In this document: piece after piece, positions 20,424 to 30,177 of the stretch
Numbering within the stretch: the first letter of the stretch is position 1
Layout of the letters: each line of letters begins with the position of its first letter
Source: Methylocystis sp. L43
GTDB lineage: Bacteria; Pseudomonadota; Alphaproteobacteria; Rhizobiales; Beijerinckiaceae
NCBI RefSeq assembly: GCF_015709525.1
Contig: NZ_JADNRA010000034.1
Coordinates: 62,001-126,000, forward strand
Length of the DNA stretch: 64,000 bases
Reading direction: 5' to 3'
The notes under the pieces: generated by a model
Databases searched by the model: none
What the model was told of the DNA's origin: nothing
What the model saw: the letters and a program-made list of their open reading frames with translations, nothing else
Made by a program: the position numbers and the translations under genes

Positions 20424-22892
20424 TCAGAACCTGAACTTCACGCCTCCGGTGAACGCGCGCGGCTGGCCGGCGATAATGCCTGCGCCTTGCGCCGTCACCA
20501 GGCCGCCGGTCGGCCAGACCAGCGGCGTTTGTATCGGTGTGCCCGCGAGAAGCGAATTGGCCACCACGAATGCGCCGGCGACGTAGGTCCGATTGAAGAT
20601 GTTCGAGGCTTCGAAATACAGCTCGATATTCTTGAAGTAGAAGTTGTCTATGTCGCGATTATAGTGCGCATTCAAATTGAACACGCTGTAGCTCGGTAGA
20701 GTGGTGAAATTGGCGTTGTCGATCGTATAATCGCTCTTGAAAATATATTCGGCGTAAGCGCCGAGACCGGCGAGATCGCCATAGGGTTGATCATATCCAT
20801 AGCGCATCGTCACAGTATGCGCCGGCACGTTGGGAATTCTGTTGCCGGCGCGGTTGTAACGAGCAGCAGCGCCGCCAGCCAGAGCAACGGGTGGGAAGCC
20901 GGCCGTAACCGACCCGAGATCGTCCCAAAAATTGGTGAAGAACTGATTGTTGAACGTATAGGCCGCGATCAGCCGCCATCCGTCAAAAGGCCGCCAATCG
21001 GCGTTGAGTTCGACGCCGCGGTGGAGAGTGGAGGGAATATTTTGCGAATAATTGGTGAGCCCATTGTTCAGCGTCAGAATCTCATTGCGATGCCATTCGT
21101 TGAAGCCGGTTACGCTGACGGTGAGGTCGGGGCGCGGCGTCCAGTCGATCCCAAGATCGACGCCCATGTTCGTCTGGGCCTTCAGGGGGTTCTGTCCGAC
21201 TCCGTTTCGGGTAGTGGTGAGAAAGACGAATGTCGGCGTGCTGTAGCCCGTCGCATAGCGGGCCCTCACTTGCCACTCGGGGCTATAGCGATAAGTGAGC
21301 GACGCTTCCGGCGCCGTGTTCCAATAATCATTGTCGACGGCGACCTGAGTCGGAAATCTGGGCGCCAGATTGGCGGGGTAGTTATAGGCGGTACTGACGC
21401 CCCAAACGCGATTCCAATTGGAGCTGAACCCGATGACGCCAGTCAGACCGGGAGCAAGAGCAATCTCTTCACGCGCGCGCAGACCGATGTTTGACGTATA
21501 GTAATCCAACTTGCCGACCTGGGCGCCGATTGCGCCGCTGTACCATCTATTCGCGATCTGATTAAACAGCGGATTGGTGGTTTTGGCGTTGTTATAGAAG
21601 AACTGGAGAAAATGCGTCGCCGGGAAGCCAAACAGATCGGTGTGGCTGGTAATGTCGGTCTGCGCGGTGATGCCCACCGTTGGACCCCTCAAGCCGACCG
21701 GGCCGCCCTGGCCGCCCGGGCCAATGATCGGCGGCGGCCAAGCTCCGTTGATGTTATCGAGATAGTCGTAAGTGAATTGCGATCGCCAGGTGGTGGCGTT
21801 GTCGAAGTCATGCTCGAACTGAACGCCGCCGATCTGTCTGAGAGAGTTCGTATGAGTGCCAAGCTGCCAGACGCTTTGACGGAGGAGCGCGCCGGATATG
21901 CCATTCGCCGGCACGTTCAGATTGTTGCACAAGTTGAGATTCAGAGAGGTCGGGATGGCGCAGCCTTGTTGAAAGGGATTGAGGTAGAACACATTGATAT
22001 TTTCTCGGTTGATGAACTCCGATCTCAAATTGTTGGCGATATATTTCACGATGACACGATCGGTAGGGGTCACGTCCCACCTGCCGAGAATCTTCGCTTG
22101 TTTGCCTGAGAAAGAATTGCGGGTATAGCCGGTGCTGTTGGCGTCGGAGGCGAAAAACGACAGATCGAAGGCGCCGAGCACGCTGTCCTTCACCGCCTTG
22201 CCGACCCGGACGTAATTGTTGACATAGCCGAAGCTGCCAAATTCCGAACCGGTGTGGACGCCGTCGATTTCGGCGCCGGAAAAGGTGCGGAAATTGATCG
22301 CGCCCGCATAGGCGTAATTGCCGAAGAGAGCGGACGATGGCCCTCGGTAGACGTCGACGGCGGCGTAGGAATGCGGATCAAGCAGGTCGGTGCGGCCATT
22401 GCCGTCGGCCGTCGTGATCGGGAACCCGTCTTCGTACATCATGATGTTGCGAACGCCAGTTGGAAAACCGACGCCAAGCCGATTGCCGGAGCCGCGAATC
22501 GAGATGAACAGATCGCGCGGATTGTTGCCTTGCTGTATGGAGACGCCGGGGCTGTATTCCAGCACTCTCCGGACATCTGCTAGGGGCGTCGGGCTCAGGA
22601 ACTTTGTGTTGACGGTCGTGACCGTCTGCCCAGGGGGGTCGCGGTAGATTGGCAATTTTGCGCGGATGGGATTGAACCCCGGCGCATATCCGGGATCGCC
22701 CGTGCTCGCCTCGCTCACGGCCGGCGTCGCCACGGCCGGACCGCGAGGAGCGATTCGGACCGGACCTGTGCGGAGCCGGCCGCCGATGTCGATCGTGGGA
22801 AGCGACTGCTGCGCATGGACAATGGGTGCGGAGGACAATAGCGCGAGGGCGCCGAGCGCGACTCCGTGCATCAATTTCGACCGGGAGCTCAT
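20424..22892 (-). CDS. mbnT: MbnT-like TonB-dependent outer-membrane receptor
   Basis: An 822-residue receptor: signal peptide (ending IVHAQ), a Pro/Gly-rich linker of about 60 residues, plug domain (VLEYSPGVSIQQGNN...ISIRGSG; DVYRGPSSALFG), then a 22-strand-type barrel ending in an aromatic Phe (GGVKFRF). It would import copper-loaded methanobactin across the outer membrane. There is no N-terminal STN signalling domain, so it is not a FecA-type transducer. ATG 22892 begins the signal peptide. It is in an operon with mbnP and mbnH upstream and mbnE downstream. The ligand is inferred from the locus and not proven. Confidence 0.85.
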   Translation of the reverse strand: MSSRSKLMHGVALGALALLSSAPIVHAQQSLPTIDIGGRLRTGPVRIAPRGPAVATPAVSEASTGDPGYAPGFNPIRAKLPIYRDPPGQTVTTVNTKFLSPTPLADVRRVLEYSPGVSIQQGNNPRDLFISIRGSGNRLGVGFPTGVRNIMMYEDGFPITTADGNGRTDLLDPHSYAAVDVYRGPSSALFGNYAYAGAINFRTFSGAEIDGVHTGSEFGSFGYVNNYVRVGKAVKDSVLGAFDLSFFASDANSTGYTRNSFSGKQAKILGRWDVTPTDRVIVKYIANNLRSEFINRENINVFYLNPFQQGCAIPTSLNLNLCNNLNVPANGISGALLRQSVWQLGTHTNSLRQIGGVQFEHDFDNATTWRSQFTYDYLDNINGAWPPPIIGPGGQGGPVGLRGPTVGITAQTDITSHTDLFGFPATHFLQFFYNNAKTTNPLFNQIANRWYSGAIGAQVGKLDYYTSNIGLRAREEIALAPGLTGVIGFSSNWNRVWGVSTAYNYPANLAPRFPTQVAVDNDYWNTAPEASLTYRYSPEWQVRARYATGYSTPTFVFLTTTRNGVGQNPLKAQTNMGVDLGIDWTPRPDLTVSVTGFNEWHRNEILTLNNGLTNYSQNIPSTLHRGVELNADWRPFDGWRLIAAYTFNNQFFTNFWDDLGSVTAGFPPVALAGGAAARYNRAGNRIPNVPAHTVTMRYGYDQPYGDLAGLGAYAEYIFKSDYTIDNANFTTLPSYSVFNLNAHYNRDIDNFYFKNIELYFEASNIFNRTYVAGAFVVANSLLAGTPIQTPLVWPTGGLVTAQGAGIIAGQPRAFTGGVKFRF

Positions 22893-22920
22893 TTTCTTTG
22901 CTTTCCTGATGGGGTGAAAC

Positions 22921-24099
22921 TCAGTGGGAGGACGCACGCGATGGCCCGCTTGCCGTCGACGCCGGTTTCCAGGGGTCGGCGAAACGTGGAGATGTCAGCA
23001 ACGACTCGTCGGTCAGCGTTTTCAGAAAGGCGATCAGATCGCTCTTTTCCTGAGGCGACAGATCGATGGGAACGATCAACGCGCTTTTGTTTGCGTTGTA
23101 TCGACCGTCGCCCTTGAGTGGACCGCTCGTGACATTGCGTCCGCCGGCCGCGTAAATGTCGATCACGTCATCGAGCGTCGCGACGCTGCCATCGTGCATG
23201 TACGGCGCGGTGACAGCGATATTGCGCAGGCTCGGCGCGCGAAACGCGCCCATCTCAGCGGGGTTATGCGTGTTCTCGAAAACGCCGCGATTGGGCTCGG
23301 GATAGGCGCCCTTTCCGTCGAGATCATAGAGGCCGGTGTTGTGAAACGGCGTCTCGATCTCGCGCGTTTTGGCGTGGTAGAACTGATCGTCGAAATTCAC
23401 GCTGCCGTGGCAGTGATGGCACTCGGCCTTCTCGCCAAAGAAGAGATCCTTGCCGCGCGTCTCTTCAGGAGAGAGCGTCGCCTTGCCTTCAAGATAGAGA
23501 TCATATTTCGAGGACGCCGAGACGACGCCGCGCTCGAAGGCGGAGATCGCCTTAATGACGTTGCCGAAGCTGATCGAGTCAGCCTCGCCGGGAAAGGCGG
23601 CCGCGAAGTCGCGGCGATATTCCGCGTCACTGTCGAAACGCGCGAGGATCTCTTTGCGGTTCTTGTCATTGACGCCCATCTCGATCGGCTCTTCGCCAAA
23701 GAGCGGGCCTTCCATCTGCCTTTCGAGGGTCACCATCGCCGGATTCGCCCAGGTGAGCGTGGCGCGCCAGGCGGCGTTGGCGATGCTGGGCGAATTGCGC
23801 GGCGTATGCTGGCCCGTGGCGCCGACGGCGACCGGGCGGCCATCGGTGAACGCCAGGCGTTGCTCGTGGCACGAGGCGCAGCTCTCCTTGCCGTTTCCGG
23901 ATAGACGCGGGTCGTAGAAGAGTTTGCGCCCGAGCTGAAAACGCGCCTCCGACATTGCGTTGTCAGCGGGAACCCGTGGCGGCGGCATGAAGTCGGGCAA
24001 GGTCCAGCGCCAGGACTCCGCGCTGGGGATGGCGTCGCCTTGCGCGCCGCCTGCGATCAGACTCGCAGCGAAGAGGAGAATGAGAGCTTCGCGCTTCAT
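22921..24099 (-). CDS. mbnH: MbnH-like di-haem peroxidase of the MbnP/MbnH metal pair
   Basis: A 392-residue secreted di-haem protein of the bacterial cytochrome c peroxidase/MauG family: signal peptide (ending AGGAQGDA), haem motifs ESCASCHEQR (near residue 74) and AECHHCHGS (near 226), and the family segment APSLRNIAVTAPYMHDGSVATL. MbnH enzymes oxidise a Trp in the partner MbnP to kynurenine, creating a copper site. Its ATG overlaps the mbnP stop (ATGA), as expected for partners made together. The C-terminal tail is Ser/Ala-rich. Confidence 0.9.
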   Translation of the reverse strand: MKREALILLFAASLIAGGAQGDAIPSAESWRWTLPDFMPPPRVPADNAMSEARFQLGRKLFYDPRLSGNGKESCASCHEQRLAFTDGRPVAVGATGQHTPRNSPSIANAAWRATLTWANPAMVTLERQMEGPLFGEEPIEMGVNDKNRKEILARFDSDAEYRRDFAAAFPGEADSISFGNVIKAISAFERGVVSASSKYDLYLEGKATLSPEETRGKDLFFGEKAECHHCHGSVNFDDQFYHAKTREIETPFHNTGLYDLDGKGAYPEPNRGVFENTHNPAEMGAFRAPSLRNIAVTAPYMHDGSVATLDDVIDIYAAGGRNVTSGPLKGDGRYNANKSALIVPIDLSPQEKSDLIAFLKTLTDESLLTSPRFADPWKPASTASGPSRASSH

Positions 24100-25325: not shown

Positions 25326-25739
25326 TTAGGAGAGAAGCGACGGGGGTGCGCGAGAGAGCCTGTTGCGGGGCCACTGCGTGGTCGACGGCGCGAGATCGCG
25401 CTCTTCCGGCCAAAGAGGAGGAGCCTCAGACACGGGCGCCAGCACGAGGACGACGGCGGATAAGAGAACCTTTGCTCCGAGGTCGTCGTTTCGGTCGCTT
25501 AGAAAGCAAGCCATGCAGTGCATGTGCTGAACATGCGGGGCCTTGCCGTCGCCATTGGCTTGATCGGCGCAAAGCTCGTTCGCCATCGCTACGGGAGAGC
25601 TTAGGAACGCGCCGAAATCGCCGCCGTAGCGGCCGTGAGAAAAAATAAGACCCAAAGCTTGCTGAAACAGCAGACAAGCGACAGCGGCCGCCACGATCGG
25701 ACGCATGAACCGCCGCATTTTTGTCTTGTCTTGCCGCAT
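25326..25739 (-). CDS. DUF2946-like small Cys/His membrane protein
   Basis: About 137 residues from ATG 25739, or 130 or 126 from the later ATGs; no clear ribosome-binding site decides the start. It has an N-terminal hydrophobic helix (PIVAAAVACLLFQQALGLIF), then the metal-ligand-like segment ELCADQ and HVQHMHCMACFLSD, and a second hydrophobic stretch. The HxxHxHCxxC pattern resembles DUF2946 proteins often found next to copper-linked TonB receptors. It is the first gene of the minus-strand arm, 162 bases before mbnP; that gap holds GC-rich inverted repeats (ACGCGT and CGCGCGTC type). A copper-sensing or copper-handling role is a guess. Confidence 0.65.
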   Translation of the reverse strand: MRQDKTKMRRFMRPIVAAAVACLLFQQALGLIFSHGRYGGDFGAFLSSPVAMANELCADQANGDGKAPHVQHMHCMACFLSDRNDDLGAKVLLSAVVLVLAPVSEAPPLWPEERDLAPSTTQWPRNRLSRAPPSLLS

Positions 25740-26127
25740 AACGAATTCTGAGTGCACGAGGATTAACTTGTCAACGACGGTTAGCGCCCAAATTTTGCAA
25801 TAATTTAAACTGTTGCGCTGCAGCCACACTTGGTCTTTGCAATTTCGCTTTGTCTTTCAGTTGGCGGGCGCGAAGACGCCTTGCGCTCCGACATCAATCC
25901 AAATGGCGCGCGCGACGGCGGGCTGAGCGCGCACCGCAATGAAGATGCTGTGGCGGCATGAGACAGTGAAGCAGGCTCGCCGATCCTTGCCGTTTGTCAA
26001 CGCGCCTTCGCCTCACCGGACCCTCGTCGTTCCGCCATGCGCGCGTCGTATAAAGAGTTTTCGTATTGCCGCAAGATTGTTTCGCGCCTATGATCCGCGC
26101 ACCGTAGGCAATGGTTGGCGGCAATCC
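25740..26127. promoter_or_regulatory. Divergent intergenic control region of the methanobactin locus
   Basis: 388 bases without a convincing gene separate the two arms. It is AT-richer near 25760-25860 (TTTGCAATAATTTAAACTG), where a promoter for the minus arm would lie, and a TATAAAGAGTTTTCG stretch near 26050 could belong to the plus arm. An open frame begins at 25939 and joins the next gene, but its N-terminal part looks like chance coding. No strong long palindrome is visible. Confidence 0.5.
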
Positions 26128-26463
26128 ATGCTCGTTCGGGTCATTCTTTTCGTTGCGATATTGCTGCAAGTCGCTGGCGTTTCGACTGTCGCCGCGCGCG
26201 CGCAATCTCATTCTTTGGCGTTCCGCGCCCTTGTCTGCAAAAGCGATGCGAGTCCCGCGGCGCCTCACGCGCCGCGCGAACACGATGGCTCTTGCTCGGA
26301 CTGTATCGCGTGCTGCGACGCTCAGCCGCAGATCTTATGCGCCTATGATCAGATTGCGCGCCTGTCCTTTCCAACGGCGCGACTCATCGTTCGCGCTCTT
26401 CCCATCCATCCCGTGTCCCGAACGGGATCGGCGACCCCGCCGGCGCGCGCCTCCCCCGTCTAA
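26128..26463 (+). CDS. Small secreted Cys-rich protein (DUF2946-like)
   Basis: A 111-residue protein from ATG 26128: signal or anchor helix (MLVRVILFVAILLQVAGVST), then a Cys cluster HDGSCSDCIACCDAQPQILC, a pattern that could bind copper or form disulfides, and an Arg/Pro-rich tail. It is the plus-strand counterpart of the gene at 25326-25739: both flank the divergent promoter region, and each has one membrane segment plus a CxxC-type site. The ribosome-binding site is weak, so the start is uncertain. Not clearly assigned to a family; DUF2946-like at best. Confidence 0.55.
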   Translation: MLVRVILFVAILLQVAGVSTVAARAQSHSLAFRALVCKSDASPAAPHAPREHDGSCSDCIACCDAQPQILCAYDQIARLSFPTARLIVRALPIHPVSRTGSATPPARASPV

Positions 26464-26601: not shown

Positions 26602-27411
26602 ATGCAGAAGTCCCATGAGACGATCGACCGACTGTTTAGAAGCCATCATCGCGATCTGATAACGCGGGCGCGCCGCGTGATCGGCTCGGGAGACGCCGAA
26701 GACCTGGTCCAGGAAGCCTATCTAAAAATGCTGGAGAGCGACCGCGGCGAACTGATTTCGAATGCGCGCGGCTATGTGACGAAGATGACGTGCACGCTCG
26801 CGATCGACAATCTTCGGAGGCAAAGAACGCATGCCAGAGCGCTGGCCGAAGACGGCGCATGGTTCCAGTCGCCCGCCGCAGACACGCGTATCACGTCGGC
26901 CCTCGACGCATTCGGCCTGGCGTCTGACGTTCAAGCGGCCTTGATGCAATTGCCGCGATGTTGTCGTCAGATATTCTTGATGAGCCGAATCCTGGGCTTC
27001 AGCCATTCCGAGATCGCGCAGGAAATCGGCGTTTCCTTGAGAACGGTCCACCGCAGCCTCGGTCGAGCGCTCGAGCATTTCGATCGCGCCTTCGAGGTCG
27101 CGCCCTCAAGCGTCCTGAAGAACGCGCCTTACGAGTCCTCTGCCAAAGTGCCCGTGCCGCGCCCTCGACATGCGCCAAACATCGAAATCTCGACGTCTCG
27201 AAAAAATTCTCTCCCCAAGTTGTCCGATTTTTGCGGCCTCGCTCGTCATACCATTCGGGTCCCGCGTTCTGCGGAGCCCGTCTGGTCTCTCCAGACGAAA
27301 TCAAAACAGGAGGCCTTCATGACCATCCGTATCGCCAAGCGCATCACCCTCAATGTCATTGGCCGCGCCAGCGCCCGCTGCGCGTCGACCTGCGCCGCCA
27401 CCAACGGCTAA
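26602..27411 (+). CDS. mbnI: MbnI-like FecI-type ECF sigma factor, reading frame continuous with mbnA
   Basis: The first ~165 residues are a complete ECF sigma factor: region 2 (DAEDLVQEAYLKMLES near residue 31; ARGYVTKMTCTLAIDNLRR near 55) and region 4 (LPRCCRQIFLMSRILGFS...SLRTVHRSLGRALEHF, 118-160). ATG 26602 follows GGGAGG; an earlier TTG at 26578 lacks this. In Methylosinus, MbnI activates the methanobactin operon. No stop codon occurs before mbnA: the frame continues through a 74-residue Ser/Pro/Arg-rich tail (166-239) and into MbnA in the same frame, ending at the mbnA stop. No FecR-type anti-sigma gene is seen. Either the sigma factor has a long tail fused to MbnA, or translation normally ends otherwise. 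Confidence 0.8.
   Translation: MQKSHETIDRLFRSHHRDLITRARRVIGSGDAEDLVQEAYLKMLESDRGELISNARGYVTKMTCTLAIDNLRRQRTHARALAEDGAWFQSPAADTRITSALDAFGLASDVQAALMQLPRCCRQIFLMSRILGFSHSEIAQEIGVSLRTVHRSLGRALEHFDRAFEVAPSSVLKNAPYESSAKVPVPRPRHAPNIEISTSRKNSLPKLSDFCGLARHTIRVPRSAEPVWSLQTKSKQEAFMTIRIAKRITLNVIGRASARCASTCAATNG
27221..27247 (+). promoter_or_regulatory. Candidate ECF-type promoter for mbnA inside the 3' part of the mbnI frame
   Basis: TGTCCGATTTT (-35-like, from 27221) and CGTC (-10-like, 27244-27247) are 17 bases apart (TGTCCG end to CGTC), a layout seen for several ECF sigma factors. It would give a leader of about 65 bases before mbnA. Motif match only; the MbnI recognition sequence in this organism is not known. 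Confidence 0.35.
27319..27411 (+). CDS. mbnA: MbnA, methanobactin precursor peptide
   Basis: A 30-residue precursor starting at ATG 27319, five bases after a strong AGGAGG. The leader (residues 1-19, beginning MTIRIAKRITLNVIGR) matches the conserved MbnA leader with basic residues and the VIGRA segment. The core RCASTCAATNG has two X-Cys pairs (RC and TC) three residues apart. In methanobactins each X-Cys pair becomes a nitrogen heterocycle with a neighbouring thioamide, and the two together bind one copper ion. This core resembles the Methylocystis class rather than the longer Cys-richer Methylosinus trichosporium core. MbnBC, encoded next, would make the heterocycles. The product is secreted as a copper-scavenging chalkophore. 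Confidence 0.96.
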   Translation: MTIRIAKRITLNVIGRASARCASTCAATNG

Positions 27412-27420
27412 GGACGATTT

Positions 27421-27457
27421 GTTTGCGCCGTTGGCCCCCCGGGCCAGCGGCGCAAAC
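27421..27457 (+). promoter_or_regulatory. Strong stem-loop between mbnA and mbnB
   Basis: GTTTGCGCCGTTGGCCC (27421-27437) pairs with GGGCCAGCGGCGCAAAC (27441-27457) over 17 positions with a single G-T wobble and a 3-base loop, starting nine bases after the mbnA stop. There is no T run after it. It probably stabilises the mbnA message and lets only part of transcription pass into mbnB, giving precursor in excess over enzymes. Confidence 0.8.
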
Positions 27458-27492: not shown

Positions 27493-28320
27493 ATGCGACT
27501 TGGCTTCAATTTCACGCTCGGCGACACCTATGACATGGCTCAGAGGCTGATCGCCGAAGGGCACATCGATTATTGCGAATTTCTTATCGACAATTTTTTC
27601 TGCGTCGATCCAGACGAATTAGCCAAGGCGTTCGATTGTCCAGTCGGGTTGCACATTATGTATTCGAAGTTTCTCGAAGCCGATCGGCCGACGCTCGTCG
27701 ATTTCGCCGCTCGGCTTCGAGATTACATCGACGCGCTGAACCCGATTTACGTCTCCGACCATATTCTGCGCTTTTCTCACGAGGGGCGCGCCTTCTTTCA
27801 CTTAGGCGAAATCGACTATGCCGCCGAATATGAATCGGTGCGCGACAAGGTCGTGCAATGGCAGGAGATCGTCGGACAGCGCATTCATTTTGAGAATTAC
27901 CCGTCCATCATGGATGGCGGTCTGGAAGCCCCCGCTTTCTTCGAGCGCCTCATGAAAGAAACGGGCGCGGGCGTGCTGTTCGACGCCTCCAACGCCGTCT
28001 GCGCCCATCGCAACTGCGGGACGCCGTTCGAGGCCTGGCGCAACGTCATCGCCAAAGCCCAGCATTTCCACGTCGCCGGCTACCGGCAATCCTTGATCGA
28101 GCCCTTCATTTCGCTCGACACCCATGCCGAGGCGCTGGCCCCGGACACGCTGGCCTTCCTTCGCAATTTTCGATCGGTCTTCGACAAGCCGGGCGCAACG
28201 ATGACCTATGAGCGCGACGATCAGATCGAGTTCGACGATATCGTCGTCGATCTGAAGGCGTTGCGCGATCTGTTCGGCCAACCAGAAGAAACGCGTCATG
28301 ACCTTGCTCTCACTGCCTAG
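27493..28320 (+). CDS. mbnB: MbnB, DUF692 iron oxygenase subunit of methanobactin synthesis
   Basis: A 275-residue DUF692 TIM-barrel protein. With MbnC it uses iron and O2 to convert MbnA cysteines to oxazolone or related rings plus thioamide. Candidate metal ligands are visible: His54 (GLHIMYS), His90 (VSDHILR), Glu134 (HFENYPS), Asp164 and Asn167 (FDASNA), His193 (FHVAGY), Asp209 and His211 (DTH) and Glu240 (TYERD). ATG 27493 follows AAAGAG. The gene end overlaps mbnC by 23 bases, supporting coupled synthesis of the heterodimer. Confidence 0.96.
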   Translation: MRLGFNFTLGDTYDMAQRLIAEGHIDYCEFLIDNFFCVDPDELAKAFDCPVGLHIMYSKFLEADRPTLVDFAARLRDYIDALNPIYVSDHILRFSHEGRAFFHLGEIDYAAEYESVRDKVVQWQEIVGQRIHFENYPSIMDGGLEAPAFFERLMKETGAGVLFDASNAVCAHRNCGTPFEAWRNVIAKAQHFHVAGYRQSLIEPFISLDTHAEALAPDTLAFLRNFRSVFDKPGATMTYERDDQIEFDDIVVDLKALRDLFGQPEETRHDLALTA

Positions 28321-28879
28321 TCGGACTGATCGCGACCTCTACCCTGCGCTGATGTCGCCGCAGCTGAACGCAAAATATCCTGCGGACCACAAGGCGTTCG
28401 TGCGGATCGACGTGAGCCTGCGCATCTATTGGCACACGCTCTTCGACATTTGCCCAGAACTGCTGGAGCTTTCCGGTCCGGACGGCATGTCGATTTTCCG
28501 GCCTTTCATGGCCTGGGCTGAGGAAAAGAAGCTCGCCTTCGACTGGTCCTATTATCTTTGGGTCTATGTTTGGCTGCGCCAATCGCCGTTCAAGGAACGG
28601 CTGTTGGCGGACGACAAATATCTCCGATCGATCATGGCGGCCTCCGCCGCGCGGTGGGCGATCCTCGATCGTGGTCGAAGCCGCGGGATCGTGATCGGAT
28701 GCGCTGATACGGCGGATCTCGTCATCGGCTGGAAATGCCGTAACGTTCGCCTCGGACGAGAGATCGAGCTTATCGAACCCGAGGAGCCGTTGCCGGCGCC
28801 TTCAGACCTGTTCGGCTATTTTACGCTGCCGAGCTTCGAACTCGACATATTTCCGGGGTGGCAGAGCCTCGCGCGATGA
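28298..28879 (+). CDS. mbnC: MbnC, partner subunit of MbnB
   Basis: A 193-residue protein of the methanobactin cassette MbnC family (LRIYWHTLFDICPELLELSG near residue 35; FMAWAEEKKLAFDWSYYLWVYVWLRQSPF). MbnC has no known catalytic motif of its own; in characterised systems it forms a complex with MbnB and helps to bind the MbnA leader and order the active site. It overlaps mbnB by 23 bases and mbnM by four (ATGA). Confidence 0.94.
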   Translation: MTLLSLPSRTDRDLYPALMSPQLNAKYPADHKAFVRIDVSLRIYWHTLFDICPELLELSGPDGMSIFRPFMAWAEEKKLAFDWSYYLWVYVWLRQSPFKERLLADDKYLRSIMAASAARWAILDRGRSRGIVIGCADTADLVIGWKCRNVRLGREIELIEPEEPLPAPSDLFGYFTLPSFELDIFPGWQSLAR

Positions 28880-30177
28880 CAAGCGCGCCATTGTGGCGCG
28901 GATACTGGTTCCTGTTCGCCAGCACGTCCGCAGCCGCCTTCATCATGCAGATCGATCTCGCCATGGTCGCGAGATTGGGCGGCCGTGCTTCAGGGGCCTA
29001 TGCGATTCTGATGCGCATCACGCTGCTGGATGTCGCGGTCACCATCGCTTCCGCGGCCGTTGCCGCCATCGCGCTCGGCCATGCACAAAAGAAGGGCGAG
29101 ACGGCCGACGCGATCGAAAAGAGCTGCGCGCTCTCCCTCGCGCTTGGCGTCGCGACAGCGATTTTCGGCTTCTTCGCCTATCCGATCTTCCTCGACGCTC
29201 TGATGGGCGACGCCGCCGCCGCTCCCTATATCGGCGCCCCGATCCTTTGGCTCGTCGCCGGCGCGCCGTTCCGCGTTCTTTCGAACACGCAAGGATTCCT
29301 GTTGCACGCCCTCGGCCGCGGCGGCTCGGTTCTCACATGGAAGCTCACCGAAATTCCAGCCAAAGTCGGAGCCAACGTCCTGTTCATGCAGACCTTCGGA
29401 TTGGGTTTTACCGGCTGCTTTCTCGCGAGCTGCATCGTCGCCGCCGCCTCGTCTTTTTGGTTATGGACTCGGCTGCACGCGCATGGCGCGCGCAAATTGC
29501 GCCTTCCCGAACTCGCCTTTGCGCGCTCCTTTATGAGCGGAACCTTCTGGGAAGCGCTACGGGTGCTGTCGCCACAGGCGGCGATGCTCTTCTCGCTGAC
29601 GCTCTTCTCACTCCCCTGGCATTACGCCGCGAACGGCCAACGCCTCGACTCCTACGCGGCCGCGCAAACCTTCATGCTGTTCATTCTTGGGCCGCTCATT
29701 ACGCTGATGCGCTATCTCGCCATTTACCTTCCCAAGCAATCTCTTGAGGATTGGACGCCAGCCCTTGCGCCGGTGATGCGCGTCGGCGCGCCAATCGCGC
29801 TGACGGCCGCCGTCTTGCTGCTCTTCGGGCGCGACTGGGTCGGGGACGCTCTCTACCGCCAACACGGACCCTGGTGGTCCGTTTTCGTCGCCTGCTTGGC
29901 GCTTTCCATACCCATCCGATTCATCGGAAGCATCGTCCGAGGACTAACGCTCGCTCGGAGCGCCTTCGCAGAGCTGACCTCCGTCGATGTGCTTGCGCAG
30001 TGGCTCATCGCGCCGCTGTTCATTCTGTTCGGTCTCTCGGTTAACCGTCCGGAGATCGCCTACCAATCACTGATCTGGCCTGAAATCGTCGCTGTTTTCT
30101 TGCTCTGGCGCGGACTTCGATCCGCGCCCGAAGAGCCTCTTGGCGTCTCGTGGCCCTCCAAAGGACATGTGCAATGA
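28876..30177 (+). CDS. mbnM: MbnM, MATE-family methanobactin exporter
   Basis: A 433-residue inner-membrane protein with about twelve hydrophobic helices (FASTSAAAFIMQIDLAMVAR at the start; ALSLALGVATAIFGFFAYPI; MLFSLTLFSLPW) in the multidrug and toxin extrusion family. It is expected to move mature methanobactin out of the cytoplasm. ATG 28876 overlaps the mbnC stop; a GTG 18 bases earlier is less likely. It also overlaps mbnF by four bases. Confidence 0.93.
   Translation: MTSAPLWRGYWFLFASTSAAAFIMQIDLAMVARLGGRASGAYAILMRITLLDVAVTIASAAVAAIALGHAQKKGETADAIEKSCALSLALGVATAIFGFFAYPIFLDALMGDAAAAPYIGAPILWLVAGAPFRVLSNTQGFLLHALGRGGSVLTWKLTEIPAKVGANVLFMQTFGLGFTGCFLASCIVAAASSFWLWTRLHAHGARKLRLPELAFARSFMSGTFWEALRVLSPQAAMLFSLTLFSLPWHYAANGQRLDSYAAAQTFMLFILGPLITLMRYLAIYLPKQSLEDWTPALAPVMRVGAPIALTAAVLLLFGRDWVGDALYRQHGPWWSVFVACLALSIPIRFIGSIVRGLTLARSAFAELTSVDVLAQWLIAPLFILFGLSVNRPEIAYQSLIWPEIVAVFLLWRGLRSAPEEPLGVSWPSKGHVQ

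Follow-up and report, generated by a model that had tools for sequence, protein, structure and literature searches.

Methanobactin operons of group II are without the FecR and signalling-domain pathway of Methylosinus, according to PMC3621798 and PMC9601215 (both in excerpt). In two strains with such operons, Methylocystis SC2 and M. rosea SV97, a genome-mining survey of 2013 ('Genome mining for methanobactins', BMC Biology; PMC3621798, in excerpt) noted an open frame that joins a sigma factor to MbnA, the methanobactin precursor. Because it was already noted there, the open frame as such is not new, and NCBIfam has a model for the fusion (NF040705, 'methanobactin precursor domain-containing sigma factor'). 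The excerpted account is one of annotation in two strains, and contains no selection test and no promoter found inside the tail. No experimental study of the fusion was found in the open-access literature searched, and the word 'methanobactin' is absent from the main text of the genome paper for strain SC2 (PMC3794950). Two sigma factors from other bacteria are also relevant. In OrbS of Burkholderia cenocepacia a C-terminal cysteine cluster is an on-board, iron-responsive anti-sigma factor (PMC9023288, in excerpt), and CorE of Myxococcus xanthus has a metal-sensing extension that regulates it in response to copper (PMC8999054, in excerpt). What is new here is the evidence that the link between sigma factor and MbnA is kept in step, a promoter-like element nested within it, and a reading of the arrangement that can be tested.

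The window, a stretch of 64,000 nts from Methylocystis sp. L43, has the same sigma-MbnA open frame as the group II operons of SC2 and SV97 (PMC3621798, in excerpt). A single stop-free frame of 269 codons runs on the + strand from ATG 26602 to the stop at 27411, which on translation is its sole stop. Residues 1–165 (26602..27096, +) form an ECF sigma factor domain with regions 2 and 4, both above the Pfam cut-off (Sigma70_r2, PF04542, 39.6 bits; Sigma70_r4_2, PF08281, 53.3 bits). A linker, or tail, of 74 codons follows (27097..27318, +; residues 166–239), open and in phase with mbnA, and then mbnA itself (27319..27411, +; residues 240–269), which specifies the 30-residue methanobactin precursor and forms, in the same frame, the 3′-terminal part of the sigma gene. 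Translation of 26602–27411 thus bears out the preliminary description, which had 165, 74 and 30 residues following one another in a single frame, and which also had mbnA provided with initiation signals of its own: its AGGAGG ribosome-binding site is at 27308..27313 (+), aligned in relatives, and its ATG at 27319. The precursor part matches PF25751 (Methanobactin) at 51.7 bits, above the Pfam cut-off, and on its own TIGR04071 at 55.1 bits, while the whole frame scores 468.2 bits against NF040705 (sigma_mbnA; cut-off 350) and covers model positions 1–272 of 272. The cysteine pair C260 and C264 is invariant in 18 aligned fusions.

Context also identifies MbnA, as genes for MbnB (27493..28320, +; TIGR04159, 456 bits, cut-off 325) and MbnC (28298..28879, +; TIGR04160, 297 bits, cut-off 185) adjoin it. 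After them comes the gene for the exporter MbnM (28873..30177, +, start approximate; NF045578, 518 bits, cut-off 285). The spacer between mbnA and mbnB contains a GC-rich long inverted repeat (27422–27456, +), with arms nearly identical over 13 nts and, by eye, conserved in relatives; mRNA attenuation or processing at this repeat may serve to make more MbnA than MbnBC. Divergent from the sigma-mbnA gene are mbnP, mbnH and a gene for a TonB-dependent receptor, by its position likely mbnT (20424..22937, −). Beside mbnP is a gene for a DUF2946-like protein (25326–25829, −) at 23.5 bits against a Pfam cut-off of 23.7. Among Pfam matches at E up to 0.01 the receptor has Plug and barrel and no STN domain. 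PF04773 (FecR) has a single match in the genome, on contig C25, and the window belongs to C33. With a receptor lacking STN and no FecR gene adjacent, the features of FecIRA cell-surface signalling are absent here. An unfused operon region (G167) does have FecR and an STN receptor, but the contrast between fused and unfused loci is not clean, because the receptor of another unfused region (G149) is likewise without STN. On the other side of the sigma gene, and ending 138 nts before it, is a gene for a 111-residue protein (26128..26463, +) that has the cysteine motif CSDCIACC, appears by eye to be exported and has no Pfam match. A resembling ORF precedes sigma in 15 of 19 loci, a distant clade included (upstream sequence is too short in three and one is unmeasured), and its product may work together with the sigma factor.

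Intact fusions, stop-free and above the NF040705 cut-off, are present in 18 of 39 Methylocystis genomes. One further genome of the genus (G169; locus L080, probably strain H62) keeps this order of genes, with its sigma frame broken, and intact fusions thus account for 18 of the 19 loci with this order. The break in H62 is in region 4 and by eye resembles a one-base gain in an A-run; it is either decay or an assembly error, and mbnA and mbnB are retained beside it. mbnA itself is found in 22 of the 39 genomes, 19 times in the fused type and in three unfused (G149, G154 and G167), where the frame that holds it is 38 to 76 residues long. (The two unfused copies in G154 are at two different mbnA-mbnB loci, on contigs C1 and C3.) Across the family, MbnB is present in 28 of 397 genomes drawn evenly from a larger group; 21 of these belong to Methylocystis and 7 to a second genus. 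The fusion is also annotated on two plasmid records of Methylocystis iwaonis.

The preliminary description had allowed for a sequencing error at the junction, and also for a sigma gene that lost its stop and is decaying. The former is disfavoured because the fusion recurs in separate assemblies, four of the intact ones being in assemblies of only 1 to 4 contigs (G158, G155, G156 and G151), and it was rejected as the source of the fusion. Decay by stop loss is disfavoured because 18 of the 19 loci keep the link, those of the distant clade included.

How much the lack of stop codons can tell depends on how often such tails are open anyway. From base composition the window's tail has a probability of 0.11 of being open, and one open tail is by itself unremarkable. 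A stop in the tails of close relatives, which on the preliminary description would count against a coding link, is absent: none of the 19 tails has one in frame. Of the 19 tails, 10 are open in one of the remaining forward frames and 9 in the other (for the 16 close tails, 9 in either case), and 4 are open in all three. Upstream of unfused mbnA, 3 of 11 examined cases have 126–140 open codons in phase. Two of these open stretches, from two genomes of the sister genus (L152 and L154; 126 and 128 codons), are similar in sequence and differ in length by two codons.

In neutral simulations at the full rates matched to the tails, all 16 close tails stayed open in 0 of 400 runs in each of six settings. 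In an earlier simulation the count was 0 of 300 for two rates, with a fraction of 0.02–0.05 for half the average rate. In these simulations, however, the other frames are open in only 11–26% of leaves, whereas each of them is open in 9 of the 16 close tails. This makes the stop test weak: the full-rate simulations have far fewer open alternative frames than the tails do, and because of this excess of stops in the first simulations, stop-free status was rejected as proof by itself. When rates were halved, every one of the 16 tails was open in 5, 11 and 2 runs out of 400; when they were quartered, which fits the alternative frames more closely, the figures were 52, 40 and 10 out of 400. The evidence from stops alone is thus modest, with all 16 tails open in about 0.5–13% of calibrated runs, and adds to that from indels. 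An explanation by chance or decay, in which the sigma gene lacks its own stop and its openness towards mbnA is meaningless, can draw on this upper figure, on the frequent openness of GC-rich tails in the other forward frames and on the long open frames before some unfused mbnA genes. It is nevertheless improbable, given the intactness of all but one of the loci, the restriction of tail indels to in-frame changes and the phase in the distant clade.

Indels are the strongest test of whether the link is maintained. Tail lengths range from 189 to 252 nts and are multiples of three in 19 of 19. The gap intervals in the 17 close tails, taken from one codon-blind MAFFT DNA alignment and all in the variable half of the tail, are 3, 6, 12, 12, 24 and 63 nts, six of six being multiples of three. 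In the mbnA-mbnB spacer of 16 loci, which served as control (L075 was left out as it meets a contig end), only 1 of 10 gap intervals is a multiple of three (Fisher p 0.0009), though the spacer is not a perfectly neutral control because it has its own inverted repeat and a C-run. The distant clade, L077 and L078, was left out of the 'close' sets as too distant. Its fusion protein is 44% identical to the rest, open and in phase, and has no tail protein sequence in common with the other fusions. A promoter-like element within the tail (see below) is in a different codon phase in this clade than in the 17 others, and since L077 and L078 are in phase despite this, it is phase rather than tail sequence that seems to be kept. 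Conservation of the stop-free link in related strains, the first check that the preliminary description had proposed, is thus found, with only in-frame indels in the tail. As judged from the sequence comparison, recurrence with in-frame indels exceeds chance. Selection would accordingly appear to keep the linker open and in phase, as shown indirectly and mainly by those indels.

The same check had included a coding-type pattern of substitutions over 27097–27318, and there the outcome is weak. With 16 sequences, the window included, dN/dS is 0.155 for sigma and 0.24 for MbnA, and in the tail 0.71 for residues 166–196 and 0.63–0.67 for residues 197–236 (H62, with its broken sigma frame, was left out of dN/dS, simulations and alignment A3). 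With tail dN/dS at about 0.7, conservation of the linker at the protein level is not supported. GC content by codon position is weakly coding-like for the variable tail in the whole set, though not in L077/L078. In a structure model of low overall confidence (mean pLDDT 54), residues 164–269, that is tail and MbnA, are below 50, and the linker is predicted, at low confidence, to be almost without structure. A flexible linker would show such weak constraint, and so would a weakly used one.

In one genome (G153) there are two near-identical paralogous sigma genes (L165, 3397–4107, −; L166, 3685–4395, −), each preceded by a small ORF and with a tail of about 70 residues that lacks MbnA and ends at its own stop. 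Such tails fit an account in which a long C-terminal extension of sigma is the working part and MbnA merely its physical end. That account is very improbable for the fusions, as the substitution ratio in their tails is so high and the two clades share no tail protein sequence.

Part of the tail is conserved as DNA. Over residues 197–236 pS is 0.20 and 0.14, compared with 0.34 in sigma, and rises to 0.38 over residues 233–239. The preliminary description had called the tail non-conserved, which is apt for the variable residues 166–196 and for 233–239, and is not for residues 197–232, conserved mainly as DNA. Within the conserved part is the promoter-like element GAAAAAA-N15-GTCCGATTT (27200..27230, +), in the window GAAAAAA-N15-GTCCGAT, which presumably resembles an ECF-type promoter. 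GAAAAAA and GTCCGA are present in 19 of 19 tails, with a spacer of 15 nts in 17 and of 13 nts in the two of L077/L078, and the element is 97 nts before the mbnA ATG (98 nts in L077/L078). The exact pattern occurs three times in the genome, once here, and a stricter pattern has a single match in 12 other genomes. The element is found in 8 of 19 long sources, always before mbnA of a fused-type locus. Before unfused mbnA similar elements are weak, with one regex match (L146) and one resemblance by eye (L112), and no clear one was found before mbnP, mbnH and mbnT. (Looser patterns match elsewhere in the window; one such match, at 25723 (−) close to where the gene before mbnP starts, was judged by eye to be coding.)

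Just before the mbnA ribosome-binding site is a possible 7-bp hairpin (27279..27297, +). In 15 distinct sequences 98.1% of cells are paired and 4 cells are changed on both sides, which 0 of 500 shuffles reach, and slid versions are 27–45% paired. By two of the five measures, the count of pairs with both sides changed (2) and of further pair types (5), however, 78 of 500 shuffles do as well, and the both-sided changes are all from the distant clade. The hairpin forms in folds of 48 and 73 nts and not in the minimum-energy fold of 83 nts, and RNAalifold on 143 columns gives a different fold.

These signals bear on whether ribosomes translating sigma simply have to run on into mbnA, either coupling translation of the two or supplying MbnA that is cut out later, with no regulatory role for the fusion. 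Retention of phase while tail sequence is not retained is what such coupling would give, and the predicted lack of linker structure, from a low-confidence model, is compatible with it. But mbnA, which has a promoter-like element, a ribosome-binding site and an ATG to itself, should not need coupling, and this alternative is rather unlikely.

The arrangement is better read as a nested gene with two products, free MbnA and sigma-linker-MbnA, and this much is probable. The free peptide would be made from signals within the 3′ part of sigma (the promoter-like element, the ribosome-binding site and an ATG), with the sigma factor as the likely activator of this internal promoter. The second product, of about 29 kDa, would be translated from the sigma start. 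That a sigma-MbnA fusion can be made, as had been supposed from the open frame, still stands, with the frame open and its stop-free link kept in relatives; the evidence suggests that cells make the joined protein in addition to free MbnA. Against this reading count H62, where sigma is broken and mbnA and mbnB remain, the dN/dS of the tail, the weakness of the stop test, the long open frames before 3 of 11 unfused mbnA genes and the mere three genomic occurrences of the exact promoter pattern.

The joined protein would most likely serve as an ECF sigma factor that carries its regulatory domain on board. The explanation as a whole, a two-product gene in which the MbnA end has this role, is given a probability of roughly 0.42. 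Its regulatory half is drawn from setting and analogy, namely the receptor without STN, the FecR gene elsewhere, and OrbS and CorE. How the domain might act is more tentative: the C-terminal MbnA, unmodified or modified by MbnBC, would possibly bind copper and so set sigma activity. Chalkophore synthesis would thereby follow cell copper without a FecR-type anti-sigma factor. Two points count against an on-board sensor: the MbnA cysteines are needed for free methanobactin anyway, and the two of them match neither the CorE nor the OrbS cluster. A bolder version is doubtful: the complete precursor of the product that the sigma factor switches on would serve as that factor's own sensor domain, with MbnBC converting the C-terminus of sigma into a copper-chelating oxazolone-thioamide and so building a RiPP-type copper sensor post-translationally.

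The main regulatory rival is docking of MbnBC, because crystal structures show MbnC bound to the MbnA leader (PMC8888699, in excerpt). MbnBC would dock on the fused leader as an anti-sigma factor and release sigma at high levels of free MbnA, or the other way round. The fusion contains the whole of MbnA and mbnBC is just downstream, as this enzyme feedback would have it. Feedback of this kind, with its putative interaction of sigma-MbnA and MbnBC, is quite unlikely. If instead the on-board reading is true, a RiPP precursor is a working protein domain. In either case the presence of mbnA signals inside the sigma frame matters when either gene is deleted or expressed in Methylocystis.

Of the known sigma factors, CorE shares with the fusion the ECF type and a copper-linked extension at the C-terminus, and differs from it in cysteine pattern and in that its extension is not a biosynthetic precursor (PMC8999054, in excerpt). 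The cluster of about four cysteines of the CorE or OrbS type (patterns as in the excerpt of PMC9023288) is absent here, there being two cysteines in MbnA and C211 in the tail, and membership of that type is not claimed because the pattern matches neither. OrbS is similar in setting, as an ECF sigma factor for metal starvation that serves a metallophore, with a receptor without signalling domain. No anti-sigma gene is adjacent to OrbS, and for the fusion this holds of FecR, the anti-sigma kind that was searched for; the OrbS four-cysteine C-terminal cluster senses Fe(II) (PMC9023288, in excerpt). Unlike OrbS, the fusion ends in a whole RiPP precursor, with two cysteines behind a 74-residue linker, and sensing by it is putative. 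MbnI-MbnR-MbnT of Methylosinus trichosporium OB3b likewise links an ECF sigma factor to a methanobactin system, but does so with an anti-sigma factor and a receptor that has a signalling domain, and the excerpt of PMC9601215 does not present its sigma factor as a fusion with MbnA. Set beside that pathway, a sigma-MbnA fusion kept in step would be a direct and testable answer to copper sensing in group II operons.
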